From Candidatus Campbelliibacteriota bacterium (GTDB lineage Bacteria > Patescibacteriota > Minisyncoccia > Phycocordibacterales > CSBR16-193), in the NCBI GenBank assembly GCA_007117035.1, contig SKHG01000019.1, positions 1 to 39,276 on the forward strand: a stretch of DNA of 39,276 nucleotides. The letters run 5' to 3'. Of the stretch, positions 1 to 13,054 are shown piece by piece (the first letter of the stretch is position 1; each line of letters opens with the position of its first letter). Under the pieces are notes generated by a model. That model was not told where the DNA came from and made no database searches. It saw only the letters and a list, made by a program, of their open reading frames with translations. A program made the position numbers and the translations under genes.

Positions 1-2201
1 AGGTTGTTAGCTGAGATGTTTCCGTCTATGTCTAAGACTGATCCGTTCCAGGTAATTGGAGAACCAGTTAGTGTGCTAGTACCGTCCCAGAGAGCAAGTT
101 GGGTTGATGTACCAGAGCCTGACACATTACCTCCAGAATTTGTCCAGAAAAGATTTCCATCACCATCAGTTGTTAGAACTTGATTAGAGTTTCCTCCTAA
201 TCCCGGCCAGTTGTATGTAATTCCGTTAATAACAGTAGTGGCGTCAATTGTAGTTGTTCCAAAAACACTTAAATCATTGTTTATAATTAACGCTCCAGAC
301 ATTGTGTCACCAGTTACAGCCACAAACTCACCGTCAGCAACACTTTGTGTATAGTAACGACCATCTCCCCAAACATCATCGAAAGCCAAAGTATTTCCAA
401 TAACACCAAGACCTTGTCCAGCAAGTGAAGTAAATGTATCACCGCCAATAGTTAATGAACCAAACAAAGCTTCTCCCACAACATGCAGATCAGCTTGAGG
501 GGTACTGGTTCCAATTCCGAATCTATAAAGATTATCATCCCAATATAGTTCACTCGAACCCATTATGGTATCCCCATCCCTCCAGAAGGTAATCATTCCA
601 TCCTCAGGTGCTCCATAAATAGAAGCGGTGGAAACACCATCAACTACAAAAAACTTTAAATTACCATCACCGTCAGTACCCAAAACATGACCATGATTTG
701 CGTCTTGACCAGGTAAAGTCCAGACCATTGAATCAGTAGAGGTTGCCATACTATCTGGCGCTCTAAAACCAACATACTTTGTTGTATCGTCTCCGTAGTA
801 AAATCTAAATTCATTTTGATCAAATAATGAAAAAGTTCCAGATACAGCAAGTGTGTCATTCATCCAGGTTAAACCACTAGAACCTGAAACAGAACTTTCG
901 TCTGACCAAAATGTTAATTCACCAACATTAGCCGAACCTAAAATACCACCGATACTTTGTAATGTTAGAACTCCTGATTGTCCTTCTAAACTTCTAACTC
1001 CACCTCCTCCACTTCTGGCAGAGATTTCAAAAGACCCGTCACCTAAATCACTAATAGTTACATTTGTGCCCTGTCTTAAAGATCTAACTAAATCAATACC
1101 GACAATATCACCTCCTTCTAAATCAATTATTTCACCACCAGTTGTTATTCCACCCAAAGCTCTTAATTGATTTGATACGTTCATCATTCCATCTACTGTT
1201 AACACACCTTCTATATTGGTGTTTGCTAACGAACTCAAACCAGACACATTTAAACCGTCCGCAACATATAGTTCATTTAAATTTGTTATATTAAAAACTT
1301 CTAAACTATCAAAAAAGGAATCTGTGGCAGAAAGTTCAGAAAGTGTAGTAAGACCATCCACTGTTAGTGACTGAAGAGTTGTTTCTCCAGCGACTAAATT
1401 ATTTAAGTTGGATAATCCAGAAGCAGAGAAGGAAGTAAGCTCAGTAAGACCATTAACGATCAAATCGTTATTGATTATTAAATCAACATTAAATTCCAAA
1501 ATACTATAATCACTAACCAGGTCCTGGAAGATACCTCCAACAAACTCATCGTTAAGAGAATCATCAAAACCAAACTGATCGAATCCTATAAAAACAGGAT
1601 CAGTTGGATCAGCCTGAGCAAGTAAATTTTGTCTATCAAACTCTCCAAATTCTGAACGTTGATTATTATTGAATCCCAAAAAAGATAGAGCGGGCATTTC
1701 AGAAGAACTGTTCTTAATTATATTTGCTACATTATCTACAGCCTTACCAACAGTTCCGTTTAAAGAAGCAAAAGTTAAAACCGAACCGAAGAAGAAAACA
1801 ATAATTGCTATGATTGAAGCCTTAACAAAAATCTTCTTTGAATTATTTAAAAACGACTCGGCGTCAGAAAAATTATCGCCCTCGTTATATTTAATCCACT
1901 TGTCTTTATATTTTGAAACTATAGCTTCAGTATTTTTTGAGGAAACAGAACTTGAACTTTTTTTTATGGATGAAGTACTGAATGATTCCTTTGACCTACA
2001 AGAAATGTTTTCGAGTGATTTCTTTTTGTATTCTAAAATACTCTCTCGATCAATTAACCAACCTCTTCCGTTCTTTTTTCTTTCAGCACCAATTAAACCT
2101 GCTCTAGAAAGCTGGCCCACATAATCCGAAGTATAGCCAGTTATTTTAGAGGCTTCTTTCGTGGAAACTAAATTTTTTATTTTATTATCAAATTCACTCA
2201 T
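1..2201 (-). CDS. Large surface-fibre-like protein, partial (C-terminus beyond window): N-terminal HTH/excisionase-like domain, one TM helix, then long repetitive beta-rich/tail-fibre-like region
   Basis: Own minus-strand translation (not in the ORF track because it runs off the edge): MSEFDNKIKNLVSTKEASKITGYTSDYVGQLSRAGLIGAERKKNGRGWLIDRESILEYKKK... TM ~ KASIIAIIVFFFGSVLTFASL ... then NDLSVFGTTTIDATTVINGITYNWP, GIGTSTPQADLHVVGEALFGSL-type fibre motifs. Confidence 0.85.
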   Translation of the reverse strand, partial: MSEFDNKIKNLVSTKEASKITGYTSDYVGQLSRAGLIGAERKKNGRGWLIDRESILEYKKKSLENISCRSKESFSTSSIKKSSSSVSSKNTEAIVSKYKDKWIKYNEGDNFSDAESFLNNSKKIFVKASIIAIIVFFFGSVLTFASLNGTVGKAVDNVANIIKNSSSEMPALSFLGFNNNQRSEFGEFDRQNLLAQADPTDPVFIGFDQFGFDDSLNDEFVGGIFQDLVSDYSILEFNVDLIINNDLIVNGLTELTSFSASGLSNLNNLVAGETTLQSLTVDGLTTLSELSATDSFFDSLEVFNITNLNELYVADGLNVSGLSSLANTNIEGVLTVDGMMNVSNQLRALGGITTGGEIIDLEGGDIVGIDLVRSLRQGTNVTISDLGDGSFEISARSGGGGVRSLEGQSGVLTLQSIGGILGSANVGELTFWSDESSVSGSSGLTWMNDTLAVSGTFSLFDQNEFRFYYGDDTTKYVGFRAPDSMATSTDSMVWTLPGQDANHGHVLGTDGDGNLKFFVVDGVSTASIYGAPEDGMITFWRDGDTIMGSSELYWDDNLYRFGIGTSTPQADLHVVGEALFGSLTIGGDTFTSLAGQGLGVIGNTLAFDDVWGDGRYYTQSVADGEFVAVTGDTMSGALIINNDLSVFGTTTIDATTVINGITYNWPGLGGNSNQVLTTDGDGNLFWTNSGGNVSGSGTSTQLALWDGTSTLTGSPITWNGSVLDIDGNISANN

Positions 2202-2655: not shown

Positions 2656-2922
2656 ATGAAAGAACCTCAAGCAAAACCCACTATAGATTTGGAAATACAA
2701 AAAATTGATGGGAATATATGGAAAGGAAAAGCTTTCTCTGTAAGCGCTAAAAATATTCATGGTGAATTCGATATACTACCCTACCACGCAAATTTCATAT
2801 CAATTCTACTAGAAGGACCAGTTGTTATTAGAGAAGAGTCCGGTCAGACAAAAAAAATATCACTACCTAGGTCAGTGATGCATTTAAAAGACAACTACAT
2901 TAAAATATACTCTGCAATATAA
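2656..2922 (+). CDS. atpC: F-type ATPase epsilon subunit, N-terminal beta-sandwich domain only (88 aa)
   Basis: AKPTIDLEIQKIDGNIWKGKAFSVSAKNIHGEFDILPYHANFISILLEGPVVI resembles the epsilon N-domain (GE..ILP.HA...); convergent with atpD. Confidence 0.75.
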   Translation: MKEPQAKPTIDLEIQKIDGNIWKGKAFSVSAKNIHGEFDILPYHANFISILLEGPVVIREESGQTKKISLPRSVMHLKDNYIKIYSAI

Positions 2923-2924
2923 TA

Positions 2925-5149
<2,225 letters not shown>

Positions 5150-6611
5150 ATTTTGTCCAGTAAATTAATATTTTTTGAAAATTCCTTTAGAAAATTGTCA
5201 AACGAAATTTCACCCTTCAAGACTAAATTTTTTGACTCCCAAAAGCCCCTGTGGGTCCTGAGTAATTTGATTATATCTTTTTTTGCCGACTTGATTAGAC
5301 TCAAATCATTTTCATCATTGTGTATCCAGTCCGTAAAGACAATTGATAGCAACAGGATTTGTATCTCAAACTCTATTAAATCAGTCTCCGTTTGATTTAA
5401 AAGTTCCTGCAAGACAGAACCCTGTTTAAGAATTTTTTTTGTGTAACCACTAACTTGGGTACCGAACCTGCTGTACTCTTGATGTTTAGGGTATTCTGCC
5501 CAAACAGATCGGAGTTTAGTTGAAAGTTCACGAGACAAAACGGTTTGTGTAGAATGTCCGATACGAGTAACCGATTTAGAAATAGAAACAGCAGGAAGAT
5601 AACCTTCGGCTTCTTTGTTTGTGGTAAAAAACAAATGACCGTCAGTTGATGCCATTATGTTTGTAGATATAAGACTGGTGTAATTTTCAACATTTGTTTC
5701 TAAAACAGGAAGGAGGGTTATACTACCACCGTTTTTAAAACTTCCCGCTCTTTCCATCAAATGTGCCTGCTGATAAAAGATATCACCTGGATAAGATTCC
5801 TTTCCGGGTAATTCCCCAGCAAGTAAAGCAACTTCTCTAATATAATTTGCGTGCATCGACATATCATCTATAACCAAAAGAACATCCTCTCCTTTTTTTG
5901 AAAAATATTCTGCGATTAGAAAGGCAGTGGATGGCGCAATTGTTATCATTGGAGCAGGTTCATCAGAAAGAGCAGAGACTATTATAGTATTGTCCTCAAC
6001 TCCTTTATTCTTTAAAAAATTCTTTAAGTTTTCAACGAATGAAATTGGTTTTCCGACAGCTGCATAAATACAAAGTGTGTTGTGTTTTTTTTGATTAACT
6101 ATCACCTCTCTTAAAAACTTTTGTTTACCACTATGAATAGGCCCATAGATTAACTCTCTCTGCCCCTTACCAATCGGGACCATTATATCAATAAGACTAA
6201 ATCCAGTAACAAGCTGTTTACTAATAAAACTTCTTACATCCACTCCAGGAGCTTTAGCGTCAAACAATAAAGGTTCGGTTGGCCCATAAGAACCTGATGT
6301 TTTTTTATTATCAAGAATAATATCACCCAGAGCATTTAGGACCTTACCTTTAATATGGTCTCCGACCGAGATTGATAGTTTGGCTGAGTGTATATAAAAC
6401 TGTGTACCTGTTGAAACTGTAGTTTTTTCCAAAAGCAGAGCAACTATATATTCAGCATACAAAGCGTGAACCTTTGCTCTTTCCCCTTCTCTACTTACAA
6501 TTATGTCATTAACTTTAGCTGAGGGTAAGCCTTTAATTTTAAGCAAATATCCATTAACAGCTGTCACTGAGCCTATTTCCTGATGTGTTATTTTAGGGAT
6601 CATTTTTATAA

Positions 6612-7142
6612 TTATATCACAGTATTAGACAAAACATCTTTTACAGATTCTACGATATGATTATGTCTATCTTGTCTCATTTTTCTAAATGTAAAGTCAT
6701 ACTGCTGGTTACACCAAGTAAAACGACAACCAGCAGTTAACTTATTATCAATTCTTATGTTAACCAAAACCTTTTGTCCAATCCTGTCTCTTATCCACGA
6801 ACTTATTTCTCTCTGAATATTTTGTTCTAATGAGACAGGAACTGTTAAAGTGAAAAACCGGCCAGATTCTATTCTTTCATAGAAATCCCTAAGGTTCTTG
6901 TAAAAATCACCAGATTTTAGAACGTCAAAAAATTCTTCTCCCCACTGGCTAAATGATTCAGAATGATAACTGTCGACTTCTTCTGATTCTAAAAAATTAT
7001 GTACTTTTTCTGTAAAACTAAGGTCATTGAGATCTGAAGTAAACTCTACTTTTTCTAAAAATCTTTTTATTAATGAAAAGCGAAATAGAAAATCTGATCT
7101 AGTGTATGTATTAGAAATTACAATCTCATCTACATTTATCAT
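6612..7142 (-). CDS. atpH: F-type ATPase delta subunit-like
   Basis: C-terminal IRDRIGQKVLVNIRIDNKLTAGCRFTWCNQQYDFTFRKMR resembles the delta C-domain; operon position. Confidence 0.7.
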   Translation of the reverse strand: MINVDEIVISNTYTRSDFLFRFSLIKRFLEKVEFTSDLNDLSFTEKVHNFLESEEVDSYHSESFSQWGEEFFDVLKSGDFYKNLRDFYERIESGRFFTLTVPVSLEQNIQREISSWIRDRIGQKVLVNIRIDNKLTAGCRFTWCNQQYDFTFRKMRQDRHNHIVESVKDVLSNTVI

Positions 7143-7156
7143 ACCTCAAAAAATTA

Positions 7157-7888
7157 TTAAAAAGCTCCTCCTTCTTTAGCCTCTTCAAGAGCTTGTTTGA
7201 TTATATCAGCATGCTGGTCAGCACTAAGGGATCTTTTTAAGGTAATTTGAGTTGTCTTTTCAACTAACAAAGCAATCTGCTCATCAACCAACCTAAGTCT
7301 CTCGTTTCTATAATCTGCAATCTGTCTTTTAGATTCCTCAAGCTCTTTCGATATAACTGTTTTGAAATTTTCTGCTTCAGTGTCTTTGATTGAGTTTATT
7401 TCTTGCTCAAGTTTTTTTGTGACCTCCTCAATATTTGATTTAATTGACTCTACTTTAGAAAGAACATCGTTTGAAACAGAATTCACAGAATCATCTATAG
7501 ATTTTTTAAAAACAGCTTTTTGTTCAGTAAAAAAATTAACTAAATTTTGGTTTTGCGAGACAATAGAATTACGAAATTCGGAACCAACAGACTCCAGCTC
7601 TTGTTCAAACTTCTGCCTAATTAATTCAGCACCACCCTTTGCTTCAATTAAATATTCGTTAGCTGACTTTACTGCCTCCGATTTTACAGAGTCAGCTTCT
7701 TCTCGAGCCTTTTGATTGATTTTTGATGCATCAGAATTAGCCTTTTCAATTATTTGCTCATAGACAGGATTTGTTAAACTTTTGAAACGACTAACAACAA
7801 AGTAAACAGAGAGCCAAAAAATAAAACTCACAATAAATAAAACTGAAATTAAAGTAATGATAAATATATCGTTTTCAAAAATACTCAT
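7157..7888 (-). CDS. atpF: F-type ATPase b subunit-like, extended coiled coil (243 aa)
   Basis: N-terminal TM then long charged helical region; position between c-like gene and delta. Confidence 0.75.
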   Translation of the reverse strand: MSIFENDIFIITLISVLFIVSFIFWLSVYFVVSRFKSLTNPVYEQIIEKANSDASKINQKAREEADSVKSEAVKSANEYLIEAKGGAELIRQKFEQELESVGSEFRNSIVSQNQNLVNFFTEQKAVFKKSIDDSVNSVSNDVLSKVESIKSNIEEVTKKLEQEINSIKDTEAENFKTVISKELEESKRQIADYRNERLRLVDEQIALLVEKTTQITLKRSLSADQHADIIKQALEEAKEGGAF

Positions 7889-7919: not shown

Positions 7920-8774
7920 CTAAAGATATATGATTGGCAGAACCAAAATAAACACACTCAAACTTAAACCTGCCAGACTAATGAAAATCATGATTGTGAT
8001 ATGAAGAATTATCATCTTTTGTATTGGTGATTTTGCTAATGGATTTCTAGCCAAAGCAGAAAGACCTCCACCAACATTAAGTTGGAAGAATCTGTAGGAC
8101 AGATAAATAGAACCTAGAGCTACCAAAGTAGCTAATAGATAACGAACCACAGTAACCCAAGGGTTTTCAATATAGTTGTTTATAAAAGAAGATAAGACAC
8201 CTTCATCTAAATTTTCAGGGTCCTCCCCTGTTTGTTCTTCGATTGACCTAGAACCAATTTGCAAATCTACTCTAATCTTCCCCGTCAAAACAGCCTGACC
8301 TCGATCTGGCACTATTATCTCAGAAACATTTTCTCCAGTACCATCAAAATTTTCCAACGCAACTCCAACTAAATACCTATGCTCTTCGGAAGCAAGCATT
8401 GCATGACCCGATACGAGTGATGTGGTTAAAGGATCACCTGATTTTATGGGCCCGTTTAATAATGAGACGTTAACCAATACCTGCCCGGTACGCACAACCA
8501 TAAATCCACCTTCATCAGTGTCTGACCTAAAACCCATAACAGGTCTCTCAACCACAATACCGAAAATATTAGGAGAACTCGGTTGGTTAGATAACTGAAA
8601 ACGGCCTGATAGCCTGTCACTAACGACTATATCTCCAGGACTAACAAATTCACCCGAAACACTTAACTGTTGTCCAACCTGAGATTCTGCAACTTGGTAG
8701 CTAAACAGAAAGACAAATAAGGTAAAGCAAAACAGAGCTTTTTTAATACCTATCTTATTCATAAATAAAAACAC
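7920..8774 (-). CDS. Signal peptide + extracellular domain + c-subunit-like two-helix hairpin (RNP loop) lacking an acidic ion-binding residue
   Basis: C-term TVVRYLLATLVALGSIYLSYRFFQLNVGGGLSALARNPLAKSPIQKMIILHITIMIFISLAGLSLSVFILVLPIIYL; loop ALARNPLA resembles AIARNPEA of F-ATPase c; operon slot of atpE. Start may be GTG 8774 or ATG 8762. Confidence 0.75.
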   Translation of the reverse strand: MFLFMNKIGIKKALFCFTLFVFLFSYQVAESQVGQQLSVSGEFVSPGDIVVSDRLSGRFQLSNQPSSPNIFGIVVERPVMGFRSDTDEGGFMVVRTGQVLVNVSLLNGPIKSGDPLTTSLVSGHAMLASEEHRYLVGVALENFDGTGENVSEIIVPDRGQAVLTGKIRVDLQIGSRSIEEQTGEDPENLDEGVLSSFINNYIENPWVTVVRYLLATLVALGSIYLSYRFFQLNVGGGLSALARNPLAKSPIQKMIILHITIMIFISLAGLSLSVFILVLPIIYL

Positions 8775-8864
8775 TTAACATCAAAAAAAGTATAATTAAT
8801 AACGCTTAATTCATTACACAACTCTTAAATAGGATTATATCACACCAAATCTTACGATGTATAG

Positions 8865-10466
8865 TTAAACCTTAAATTTATTATTTAAAATACCATTTCT
8901 AACCTTAACACCATCTGAAGTAAAAACTTTTTTATAATTATTCTCCCCTATTTTTTCATCTACAGTAACGTAATAATCTCCATTTGGAATGAGGACAAAA
9001 AATCTACCAAATTTATCACATGATGTTTTTAGAATTTCTTGACTATGTTTTAATGAATACACATTTAAAATAGCGTAGGAAAGTGGCTTATTGTTTGTTA
9101 GATAAGTAATACTTCCGTATTTTCTTTTTTTAAACACAAATCTTAATATTAAAACAATCAGATATAGCAAAAATATTAAATAGTTGTACCACACTGGTAA
9201 AACCATAACCAAAATTAAAGAAGCGATAAAACCAAGGTAAAAGAACCCCCTAGACAACACTACTTTAATTTCATTAGCATATGAATAGAAATTCATAACT
9301 CCCAACCTTTGTTTTGCAAATTCATTCCAATCAAATCTTTCTGAATCCATAGGAATATTTTTTGAAATAACCTCATTTTCAGACTTGATTTCAAAAAAAT
9401 CTCCAAAATATATATCCGCATAAAGACTATCGCTACGCTTTTTTTCCATTATCTTAGAAGGAAAAGAATAGTTAGCTTTTTCTACCTTAATTTTGTAGCG
9501 CCCAGGCTCTGCCAAAAATCCATAACGCCCATCAAGGTCTGTAATGACTGTTTTCTTTACTCGCTTGTTTTCATCCTCTAGAGTTACATAAACTGGATCA
9601 AGTGGTTGTTTGGTAACGGCGTCGTAAACTGTCCCCCATGGTTTACCTCTACTTCTAAAACTAACTCTAGACTGAATTAGTGCCCATATCCTTAACGGAG
9701 CAAAGATAAAATCTAGAAAAACAGAGCTCGCAAAAAGTAAACTAAACAAACTAGCAAAACCAACAAACAAACCTCCAGTAGATAAAACTTGTGCAATAAT
9801 TTGACTACCTGTATCTCTTAAATTACTAGCTACTCCGCTAGCAGTTTCCTCTGTTAAATCTCTAATACTTTGTAAGTTAACAGAAACAAAATCACCTATT
9901 GAAACAGAGGACCTGCTAATTTGATCTCTAACATCTGATTCCTCACCACCTCCTGTAACCTCTGTTTTCTGAGTAGAACCAATTTTTAATTGAACAGCAA
10001 TCTGTCCGACATAAACAGGATTAGGGCTACCTGAATGATATATTTGTCTTTGAGCATTTTCTTGATTAAAATCATCATCAGCAATTCCAAAAATATATTT
10101 ATGACTTTTGTTTGCCTTCATTGCAAAGCCTGGAATCGCCGAGGTTGTTAGTCTGTCCCCTTTACTAATATCCCCCCCTAAAAGAGAAACGTTGACCAAC
10201 AACTGTCCAATCCTAACAACAGAGGTTCCTTCATTTAGATTATCAGTTCTTAAAAAAAATTGAGGTTTTTTGGAAACCACACCAAAAACATTAAAAGCAT
10301 CTTCTGATTCAGAAATTTTAAAAATACCAGTAGTGTAATCTCTGACAACTATATCACCAACTCCGACATCTAAACCATCTATCACTACCTCATAACCCAT
10401 CTGGGAATAAATATGGGTAGGAAAAATAAGAACCCCACAAATTATTATTAATTTTAAAAATTTCAC
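8865..10466 (-). CDS. Membrane protein: same extracellular domain as neighbouring c-like protein + TM region + carboxypeptidase-regulatory-like beta domain + TMs + second beta domain
   Basis: RIGQLLVNVSLLGGDISKGDRLTTSAIPGFAMKA parallels RTGQVLVNVSLLNGPIKSGDPLTTSLVSGHAMLA of 7920-8774; GTVYDAVTKQPLDPVYVTLEDEN...TDLDGRYGFLAEPGRYKI; GTG start. Confidence 0.75.
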   Translation of the reverse strand: MKFLKLIIICGVLIFPTHIYSQMGYEVVIDGLDVGVGDIVVRDYTTGIFKISESEDAFNVFGVVSKKPQFFLRTDNLNEGTSVVRIGQLLVNVSLLGGDISKGDRLTTSAIPGFAMKANKSHKYIFGIADDDFNQENAQRQIYHSGSPNPVYVGQIAVQLKIGSTQKTEVTGGGEESDVRDQISRSSVSIGDFVSVNLQSIRDLTEETASGVASNLRDTGSQIIAQVLSTGGLFVGFASLFSLLFASSVFLDFIFAPLRIWALIQSRVSFRSRGKPWGTVYDAVTKQPLDPVYVTLEDENKRVKKTVITDLDGRYGFLAEPGRYKIKVEKANYSFPSKIMEKKRSDSLYADIYFGDFFEIKSENEVISKNIPMDSERFDWNEFAKQRLGVMNFYSYANEIKVVLSRGFFYLGFIASLILVMVLPVWYNYLIFLLYLIVLILRFVFKKRKYGSITYLTNNKPLSYAILNVYSLKHSQEILKTSCDKFGRFFVLIPNGDYYVTVDEKIGENNYKKVFTSDGVKVRNGILNNKFKV

Positions 10467-10570: not shown

Positions 10571-13054
10571 TTATTCCTCTTCTTCAGGTTCAGATAAATC
10601 TTCACCTTCTTCATCAAGAGGTAAAGAGTCGTCTGGCTCCAGATTATCATCGAAAATATTACCAGAAAGTCCATCTAGAGCGTCTCGTCCTGCTCTGATA
10701 TTTTCTCTAATTCTAATAAGGAATTCATTACCAGGTACAGTTTCAATCAAAACATCAAACCTCTGCACAGATTCTTCAATTCTTCCTAATTGGAAGTAAC
10801 TTAACCCTAAGAAATAATTAGCGTTCGAATATGTTGGAGCTAAATCAAGAGTTCTTTCAAACGCTTCAACTGCTTGTTGATACTGACCATCGTTGAAATA
10901 CAAAAGACCTAACTCGAAATGAACAATTGGATTTCTTGGTGCGGTCTGTAGGGCTTGTCGAGCTTGTTGGATAGCTGACTCAATATTACCTTCAGAAATC
11001 TCTATTCGAGCCAAAAGGAATATAGCTTGAGTATAGTTTGGCTTCAAATCACGAGCTCTGGCGATATTTTCTCTAGCCTTCTCTAAATCATTATTTGCGA
11101 TTTCAGTTCTTGCAATCTGGAGATAAATTGCTGGAGACTTTGGATTCAATTCTTTGGCTATTTCAAAAGTTTTTATTGCCTCTTCATACGATCCAGTAAC
11201 CCCTAAAACTAATGCCTGTCTATACACAACACCCAAGTTAACGTAGTTTCCATAATTACTTCTATCTTTGGTAACCGCATTCTGAGCACTTGCTATAGCA
11301 GCACTCAACAGGGCCACCAACTGATCATTCTCCTCTTCAGTGAATTCTTGGCCTTGGGCTTGGCGAACAATGACGTTTGCTCTGGATAAATAAAGCTGAG
11401 AAAGTCTTCTAAAATATAGATCTGCTGGATTCCTTTGTATTGCCTCAGTTAACATTTTTTGTGCCTGTGGAAAATTATTCTCCACCACAGCAACTTCAGC
11501 TCTTTGGAAATAGACATAAGATATAGCTTTTTGGCTTGCATAATAAACAAGCGCTAACGAAGCAATTATGAACAGCACAATGATAGCGACGTTAACAAAC
11601 TCTAGCTTCTTGTTTTCACCATTATAGATCAGTAATTCTCTACTTGGAGCAAAATTGTTCAAAAGGAGAACTGATATAAAGATTCCTGTAAAAACAAAAG
11701 TTAATGTCCATATCACAGCTCCCGGAATTGTCATAATATTCATAACCCACAAGAACAGTGAGGTTACAAAAGAGGAAGAACCGAGATAACGACTAAATTT
11801 ATCTACTCGCAGTCTAAAGAAGAAGATAAAGCCTAGATAGATAAATAATACAAAAAATAACAACCACGCCAAAATTCCCAACACACCAGTCGTTACAACA
11901 AACGTTAGAATGTTACTAAAACCATGATTAAAATCGACATTCCAAAAGATAGTTCTGTTTACTGGATCAGGTTTATAAATCACCCATTGATTTACAAATC
12001 TATTTGGTCCAACTCCCAAGACTGGTTTTTCAGACACTGTTTCATTAATAATATTTAGAGTTGTTGTAAAATCAGGTTTAGCTCCTAAATCAGTAATCTG
12101 ATAGTAATTGTTTATTTCTTCAGAAAGAAAATTTCCGCCAAAAATAAACAAAACTGAAAAAATTAAAACGACCAAAGAGCTAACTGAAAATTTCCTACTT
12201 GGTGTTTTTTTAACCTGATTATTTTCGTTAGAATCTTCGGAAGTTTCAGAAGTAACCTTTAAAGAAACAGCTGAGTTTTTGTTATTTGCTTTAGAAAAAC
12301 TTAAAACAAAATAAATTAATGAAAATATAGATAAGAAATACCAAATTAAAGGAACGTTAATAGTTGCCAGCATTATGACAGAAAGAATCAAAGTAACTAG
12401 AATAATCACTCGCATTAAACGAGGAAACTTCAATTCCTCTAAGGTCATTAAAGAAAGAATTACAGCAGTACCAAAAAAGATTCCAAGATCAGCCCAGCGC
12501 CCTACTGTGTTTGAGGTGATACTACCAAAAGTATCTCCGAACGAAAGAAAATCAACCCCGAACACAAATCTAGACAGATGAAACACAGATAAGATTAAGA
12601 CAGAAAGAAAAAATACCAGATAAACATAAAAAATCTGTATTTTGGTGTTAATAAACCTTGTAATCAAAAACAACAAAAGAAAAGAGACTAAAACGAAAAT
12701 AAATGTGGAGGTTTCGTAGCCAACACCCATAAATGACTTAGTAAAACTTAACGAAAAAAATGAGGAAAGCAAAAAAACCAATGGCACGAGAACTATCGGC
12801 CAAAAAATTATTTTATTGGGAAAATCAAAGCGTCCTTCCTTCAAAATATTCAGAAGAAATATTATGAAAAGTAAAACAGATACCGAAATAACAAAAAAGC
12901 TTTTAGTAAACTCAAAAGCAATTAATGGTGCAATGATAAGAGGTAAGAGAAAAACAAATACAAGTAAAATGTAAAAGGAAACTTTTTCTAAACCAGGGCC
13001 AGACCTTTCTGAACTTTCTATATCGTCACTGAAAATATATTTGAAATAAGACAT
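10571..13054 (-). CDS. O-antigen ligase (Wzy/WaaL)-like polytopic membrane protein with C-terminal TPR repeats
   Basis: Many TM helices, GVGPNRFVNQW motif, then TPR units (NPKSPAIYLQIARTEIANNDLEKARENIARARDLKP...). Confidence 0.75.
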   Translation of the reverse strand: MSYFKYIFSDDIESSERSGPGLEKVSFYILLVFVFLLPLIIAPLIAFEFTKSFFVISVSVLLFIIFLLNILKEGRFDFPNKIIFWPIVLVPLVFLLSSFFSLSFTKSFMGVGYETSTFIFVLVSFLLLFLITRFINTKIQIFYVYLVFFLSVLILSVFHLSRFVFGVDFLSFGDTFGSITSNTVGRWADLGIFFGTAVILSLMTLEELKFPRLMRVIILVTLILSVIMLATINVPLIWYFLSIFSLIYFVLSFSKANNKNSAVSLKVTSETSEDSNENNQVKKTPSRKFSVSSLVVLIFSVLFIFGGNFLSEEINNYYQITDLGAKPDFTTTLNIINETVSEKPVLGVGPNRFVNQWVIYKPDPVNRTIFWNVDFNHGFSNILTFVVTTGVLGILAWLLFFVLFIYLGFIFFFRLRVDKFSRYLGSSSFVTSLFLWVMNIMTIPGAVIWTLTFVFTGIFISVLLLNNFAPSRELLIYNGENKKLEFVNVAIIVLFIIASLALVYYASQKAISYVYFQRAEVAVVENNFPQAQKMLTEAIQRNPADLYFRRLSQLYLSRANVIVRQAQGQEFTEEENDQLVALLSAAIASAQNAVTKDRSNYGNYVNLGVVYRQALVLGVTGSYEEAIKTFEIAKELNPKSPAIYLQIARTEIANNDLEKARENIARARDLKPNYTQAIFLLARIEISEGNIESAIQQARQALQTAPRNPIVHFELGLLYFNDGQYQQAVEAFERTLDLAPTYSNANYFLGLSYFQLGRIEESVQRFDVLIETVPGNEFLIRIRENIRAGRDALDGLSGNIFDDNLEPDDSLPLDEEGEDLSEPEEEE

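Follow-up and report, generated by a model that had tools for sequence, protein, structure and literature searches.

An F1-type ATPase locus encoding a head-bearing, ion-site-less homologue of subunit c beside surface fibre genes: a candidate ATP-driven surface machine of CPR bacteria

What could an F1-type ATPase accomplish if the protein encoded where a membrane rotor would be expected carries a secreted head, and if a surface fibre is encoded next door? This question is raised by the window, the whole stretch of 39,276 nucleotides analysed here (contig SKHG01000019.1 of a Candidatus Campbelliibacteriota bacterium). In the direction of transcription, the genes follow the order X533, cX, b-like, delta-like, alpha, gamma, and beta, where cX designates a 284-aa protein and X533 a 533-aa protein (Table 1). 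We argue below that the locus, which many of the tiny and mostly uncultured CPR bacteria carry, probably encodes a surface machine driven by ATP and not an enzyme for producing energy.

The b-like protein has an N-terminal transmembrane (TM) segment followed by a long coiled coil; its position is conserved, and family models match it weakly. The epsilon gene is inverted and convergent with the beta gene, an arrangement common to the same-family loci L056 and L154, and in most other families it lies 3' of beta in the normal orientation. The product of the fibre gene comprises an N-terminal HTH_17 domain, one TM segment, and then a repetitive ectodomain, and its homologues adjoin the other cX loci. 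Directly upstream of X533, a minus-strand gene (10571-13054) encodes an O-antigen-ligase-like membrane protein with TPR repeats; it was considered as a part of the unit and dropped, having no counterpart upstream in the same-family loci.

Table 1. Positions and supporting matches of the features of the ATPase locus in the window.
Feature	Position	Strand	Evidence and remarks
Fibre gene, truncated at contig end, 733 aa present	1..2201	-	HTH_17 PF12728, E 1.5e-4; TIGR01764, 2.5e-4
F1 epsilon, beta-sandwich domain only	2656..2922	+	NCBIfam epsilon models, best 8e-10; epsilon profile 3e-22
F1 beta (catalytic)	2925..4334	-	PF00006, 9e-60; TIGR01039, 3.7e-129, under that model's cut-off
F1 gamma (central shaft)	4322..5149	-	PF00231, 4e-25
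F1 alpha	5116..6603	-	PF00006, 1e-58; PF00306, 1e-10; arginine-finger motif SVTRIG present
Delta/OSCP-like	6612..7142	-	Weak: PF00213, 0.015; TIGR01145, 0.015; family-conserved place between b and alpha
b-like peripheral stalk	7157..7888	-	Weak: PRK08476 (subunit B'), 2.4e-4; PF00430, 0.039; position conserved
cX, 284 aa	7920..8774	-	Signal peptide, secreted head, subunit-c-like hairpin without ion-binding carboxylate
cX head (aa 33-175)	8250..8678	-	AF2 pLDDT mostly >90; phage decoration/appendage fold
cX c-like TM hairpin (aa 205-283)	7926..8162	-	ARNPLAK loop; hhalign and Foldseek matches to subunit c
X533, 533 aa	8865..10466	-	PF13620, 2e-11; orthologues in G002 and G003 only
X533 head (aa 33-164)	9975..10370	-	42% identity to cX head; head profile 5e-35

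The first-pass annotation of the window had proposed that the two adjacent membrane proteins share a secreted N-terminal domain, and this was borne out. Both ORFs are real and lie on the minus strand, and BLASTP pairs residues 31-188 of cX with residues 21-177 of X533 (42% over 159 residues, 3 gaps) with an E-value of 5e-31, which places the similarity of the two heads far above chance; a profile built from the heads of 15 cX relatives also recovers X533. The likeness of this domain to parts of CPR fibre proteins, suggested in the same annotation, was tested and holds as well. Heads lacking the hairpin occur in open frames of about 360 to 7,900 aa in approximately 85 genomes of the order that have no full-length cX, and Peptidase_S74 was detected in two of the ten fibre proteins or fibre C-terminal pieces scanned, both of them beside cX-type loci (L084 and L085). 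The fold of the modelled head is that of phage capsid-decoration and appendage proteins according to Foldseek (PDB 8pkh, 9.9e-5; BFVD, 2.7e-10), these matches being of partial coverage and with moderate TM-scores, and the Pfam family XM1_gp53 (minor capsid) matches 8 of the 48 cX members, with a best E-value of 1.4e-5. The head is a fibre-associated domain, and some of those fibres carry Peptidase_S74. At nine loci, cX itself has an HTH_17 N-terminus, as in the fibres, and an additional TM segment separates HTH_17 from the head in the two such proteins examined (L123 and L146).

The proposal that X533 is a stator-like protein was not supported, since it matches no stator subunit and is missing from one of the four genomes of the window's family, as well as from all other loci. 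More precisely, X533 is present in three of the four genomes of this family (f1), with orthologues in G002 and G003, and is absent from G001 and from every cX locus outside f1. The protein is built of a signal peptide, the head, a TM segment, a CarboxypepD_reg-like domain, a TM pair, and a C-terminal beta domain; because its structural model is poor (pLDDT 45, 3 sequences), a fold is claimed for the shared head alone. X533 may be an accessory sharing the head-binding partner.

The rotor-like character assigned to the 284-aa protein, on the other hand, was upheld by profile-profile comparison, by a profile search of the PDB, and by fold, all of which identify the hairpin as a homologue of subunit c. 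Residues 205-283 are modelled as two long helices around the ARNPLAK loop with a pLDDT of about 90. The alignment of the cX hairpin with 12 canonical c proteins by hhalign gave a probability of 91.8 and an E-value of 7e-7; a search of the full set of PDB chains with a 48-member cX profile gave 17 hits at E<=1, each of them an ATP synthase c chain (best 0.0037); and Foldseek comparison of the hairpin with c-ring chains yielded target-normalised TM-scores of 0.72-0.89 at 1.2-2.4 Å. The polar loop of the subunit c family (RNP/RQP) is kept in cX. In subunit c, both termini face outward and the loop points towards F1, so the secreted N-terminal head of cX fits the topology of this subunit. The glycine-rich packing motif of canonical c (GPGIGIG) is missing from TM1 of cX, and ring assembly is therefore not assured.

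The ion-binding carboxylate of subunit c has been lost. None of about 75 cX relatives has an acid at the ion-binding position: where canonical c has its ion-binding Glu, the aligned residue of cX is hydrophobic (Met in the window). The canonical c of same-group genomes retains E at this site. In L142 and L148, an Asp is found about five residues before the usual ion position, where most other cX have Asn, and judging from the alignment it is possible that this represents a displaced ion site. No a subunit (PF00119) was found in the locus or in the whole genomes of four locus carriers, G000, G001, G003, and G129. G000 and G001 encode a V-type ATPase apart from the locus, the K subunit of which has two hairpins; G129 likewise has a two-hairpin, V-type-like K subunit belonging to a separate enzyme; and a canonical F1Fo is present elsewhere in the genomes of most other carriers. 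The head-c locus is therefore an additional enzyme in most carriers; no second alpha/beta pair was seen in G129 and G172. One could still suppose that the locus serves as an ion pump or ATP synthase, its a subunit having gone unrecognised and its ion site having moved; the complete F1, the b and delta subunits, and the early Asp of L142 and L148 could be cited in favour. However, the loss of the acid in every cX, the lack of an a subunit in the four whole genomes, and the F- or V-type ATPase that most carriers already possess make such a function very unlikely.

By its active-site motifs, F1 (alpha, beta, gamma, epsilon) appears to be catalytically intact. Both the Walker A motif (GGAGVGKT) and GERTREG are present in the window beta; Walker A is found in all 52 betas of this type, and GERxREG was recognised by pattern in 48 of them. 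The arginine-finger motif SVxRxG occurs in most alphas, this count being approximate, with 12 missed by the pattern and a few chance matches. The scores of beta and alpha, which fall under the curated cut-offs for canonical subunits, could be taken as a sign of a decaying duplicate of ATP synthase without present function, but the intactness of reading frames and catalytic motifs in CPR lineages far apart from each other, the conserved gene order, and the fusion of a head leave this explanation with hardly any credibility.

Full-length cX was detected in about 15 of the 397 sampled genomes of the order, including all four of the window's family. A class-wide profile search revealed further lineages with cX, and a scan of GTDB representatives, for which the query was a 6-row alignment subset, returned 63 records, labelled Campbellbacteria, Kaiserbacteria, Parcubacteria, Paceibacterota, Curtissbacteria, Saccharibacteria, Patescibacteria, or simply 'bacterium'. 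The order cX-b-delta-alpha-gamma-beta-epsilon recurs among those lineages. On the phylogenetic tree, a moderately supported branch (70/100, 72% of bootstrap trees) splits betas of this type from canonical CPR betas; with support only at this level, the tree was set aside as proof of one origin.

Variations of this layout were also observed. Some Saccharibacteria have two complete loci: in L241-L244, both are complete head-c F1 loci, the betas of which are about 68% and 59% identical to that of L176, and several of these genomes additionally contain a canonical-type beta and free-standing copies of cX. In the Parcubacteria genome Gr01-1014_30 (L155:9662-11050), a gene for a membrane histidine kinase lies between alpha and gamma, and in genome G344 (L057:8852-10881) b and cX are separated by three ORFs of no recognised family, one of them weakly matched in Pfam.

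On about 20 Saccharibacteria contigs, cX and a fibre gene are present with no F1 genes alongside. Such free-standing cX had been considered as evidence against a motor role, and this view was revised, since nearly all tested genomes with free-standing cX hold this F1 type elsewhere; the exceptions are G743 and G745, in which it was not seen. Judging from the free-standing copies, cX may have a role independent of the motor. Pairs of this kind would also suit a model in which cX forms a static head-bearing ring or patch and F1 operates as an ATP-driven clamp or switch over fibre binding, without continuous rotation. The unconserved ring-packing residues of TM1 and the lack of an a subunit to fix a stator are consistent with this model; however, the conservation of the gamma shaft, epsilon, the RNP loop, and the peripheral stalk is hard to explain without torque, and we consider a purely static or switching device to be decidedly unlikely.

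The neighbourhood of the locus points to surface fibres. Fibre genes accompany 24 of the 30 non-Saccharibacteria loci and 34 of the 37 Saccharibacteria loci; the first-pass annotation had suggested that the heads could engage fibres such as the one encoded at the edge of the window. Outside Saccharibacteria, where the count took in loci extending 1.5 kb or more past beta, the fibre-like ORF lies within 1.6 kb 3' of beta on the same strand, and no fibre-like ORF was found up to 8 kb downstream of about ten canonical F1Fo loci, a comparison in which the fibre queries, drawn from cX-type loci, somewhat favour those loci. In Saccharibacteria, a TM-anchored fibre-like ORF is located within 2.5 kb at these cX loci, with or without F1 genes, but fibre-like ORFs make up 104 of all 421 large ORFs at Saccharibacteria loci, about a quarter, which reduces the weight of this figure. 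The fibre at 1-2201 has no head domain within the 733 aa present.

A single-sequence search had given the impression that HTH-anchored fibres are nearly specific to the locus; this was dropped after a profile search revealed them in 199 of the 397 genomes of the order, with one to five copies each. In several motor-less genomes, a small HTH_17 ORF adjoins a large HTH_17 fibre ORF (G087:C2, G238:C1, G158:C16, G363:C5, and G253:C2), and in families f52 and f59 and some Kaiserbacteria the motor genes are located between two HTH ORFs. The existence of HTH ORF pairs with and without the motor between them suggests that the motor may be an addition to a widespread fibre apparatus. It can also be noted that a domain of DNA-binding type, HTH_17, sits at the cytoplasmic end of these surface fibres.

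The fibre is the most constant neighbour of cX, including cX without F1, and this could be explained if F1 powered the export or assembly of the neighbouring fibre in the manner of the F1-like ATPases of type III secretion, with cX acting as a membrane portal or cap and the head as a template or chaperone for trimers. The domain shared by head and fibre and the S74 chaperone domain on some fibres could be accommodated by such a scheme. However, the fibres have an ordinary N-terminal TM segment or anchor and could use Sec, and gamma, epsilon, b, and the c-type hairpin, all of them rotary parts, are kept, whereas the type III secretion ATPase system is not known to have a c-ring. No secretion-system component was seen in the cX loci. 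Taken together, our analysis makes an export function appear unlikely.

We return to a rotary machine. Retention of the shaft, the c loop, the stalk, and the active sites, combined with the loss of the a subunit and the ion site, the gain of a head and the neighbouring fibre gene, makes an ATP-driven rotor with mechanical output at the cell surface the best explanation of the locus. That the locus encodes an F1-type ATPase whose c homologue bears a head but no ion site, and that it is linked to fibres, can be held with considerably more confidence than the functional proposal that an F-type rotary ATPase has been turned into an ATP-driven surface machine, the chances of which we judge to be about even. 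The detailed version of this proposal, in which an ion-free c-ring spins a crown of phage-fibre-type heads and drives a surface fibre, so that the output across the membrane is purely mechanical, falls a little short of even chances.

According to this mechanism, cX would form a c-ring, and a ring of heads would project from the cell. ATP hydrolysis would turn gamma, epsilon, and the ring, with b and delta holding the stator, and with no ion path available this rotation would be spent as mechanical work. The heads could then act on the neighbouring fibre, or on the surface bound by it, by rotating, pulling, priming, or releasing. X533 would be a family-specific accessory with the same head. 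A device of this kind would be suited to attaching to, or moving on, the surface of a host. Some observations speak against the rotor: without an a subunit, b has no evident anchor beside the ring; HTH fibres are common in genomes of the order that do not have the locus; and cX and fibre genes occur together without F1 genes alongside.

Comparison with known systems places the locus more precisely. Like bacterial F1Fo, it encodes alpha, beta, gamma, and epsilon and a c hairpin with the RNP loop, together with weakly matched delta-like and b-like proteins in conserved positions; unlike bacterial F1Fo, it includes neither an a subunit nor the ion-binding carboxylate, its c bears a secreted head, and most of the examined genomes have it on top of a canonical enzyme of F or V type. 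N-ATPases (alternate F1F0), which are ion pumps with a and c subunits, resemble the CPR locus in being a second F-type ATPase, but the window beta reached only 406.2 bits against the corresponding model TIGR03305, the cut-off of which is 752. The fold of the head is common to phage decoration, cement, and appendage proteins (XM1 gp53, DUF2190, preneck appendage barrel), whereas in CPR bacteria the head is fused to a membrane rotor subunit of the bacterium. Giant fibres of CPR/Patescibacteria, with an HTH_17-TM anchor and, in some of them, Peptidase_S74, share the head, and some cX share the HTH anchor; these fibres differ from cX in having long repetitive stalks without a c-like hairpin.

Closest among known systems are the mycoplasma F1-like X0 ATPases, represented by Type 2, involved in the gliding of M. 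mobile (G1-ATPase), and Type 3 (MIB-MIP) (PMC3369863, PMC11864180, PMC12994834); a precedent for F1-like ATPases doing work at the cell surface is available (PMC11864180, PMC12994834). These systems are extra F1-like ATPases besides the normal one that seem to be uncoupled from Fo and linked with surface proteins (PMC3369863, PMC11864180, PMC12994834), and in this the CPR locus resembles them. However, none of the mycoplasma X0 proteins resembles a, b, or c, and one of them is a 12-TM protein (PMC3369863), whereas b, delta, and c are recognisable in the CPR locus; no 12-TM gene is present in the unit. The window beta scored 406.7 bits against the MSC_0618 model (NF045934, cut-off 570) and 365 against the MMOB1670 model (NF045858, cut-off 850), and the window alpha 248.2 against NF045936 (cut-off 520) and 304.1 against NF045863 (cut-off 600). 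Moreover, the window beta is nearer to canonical F1 beta (1e-116) than to the beta of G1-ATPase (2e-84). Given these scores below the mycoplasma cut-offs, the closer affinity of beta to the canonical enzyme, and the retention of b, delta, and c, the locus is not a member of the mycoplasma X0 families.

The open literature yielded no description of a comparable locus from CPR bacteria, subscription papers and preprints being largely outside this search. If the proposed function is true, an F1 ATPase would have been turned into a surface machine a second time, apparently independently and outside the mycoplasmas, and the recognisable b, delta, and c parts of the locus would make the path from an ATP synthase to a mechanical motor readable. 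The locus occurs in Saccharibacteria, a lineage with cultured members and genetic tools (PMC10633639). It is a candidate for the way in which CPR bacteria spend ATP at their surface, perhaps to attach to hosts or to move on them.
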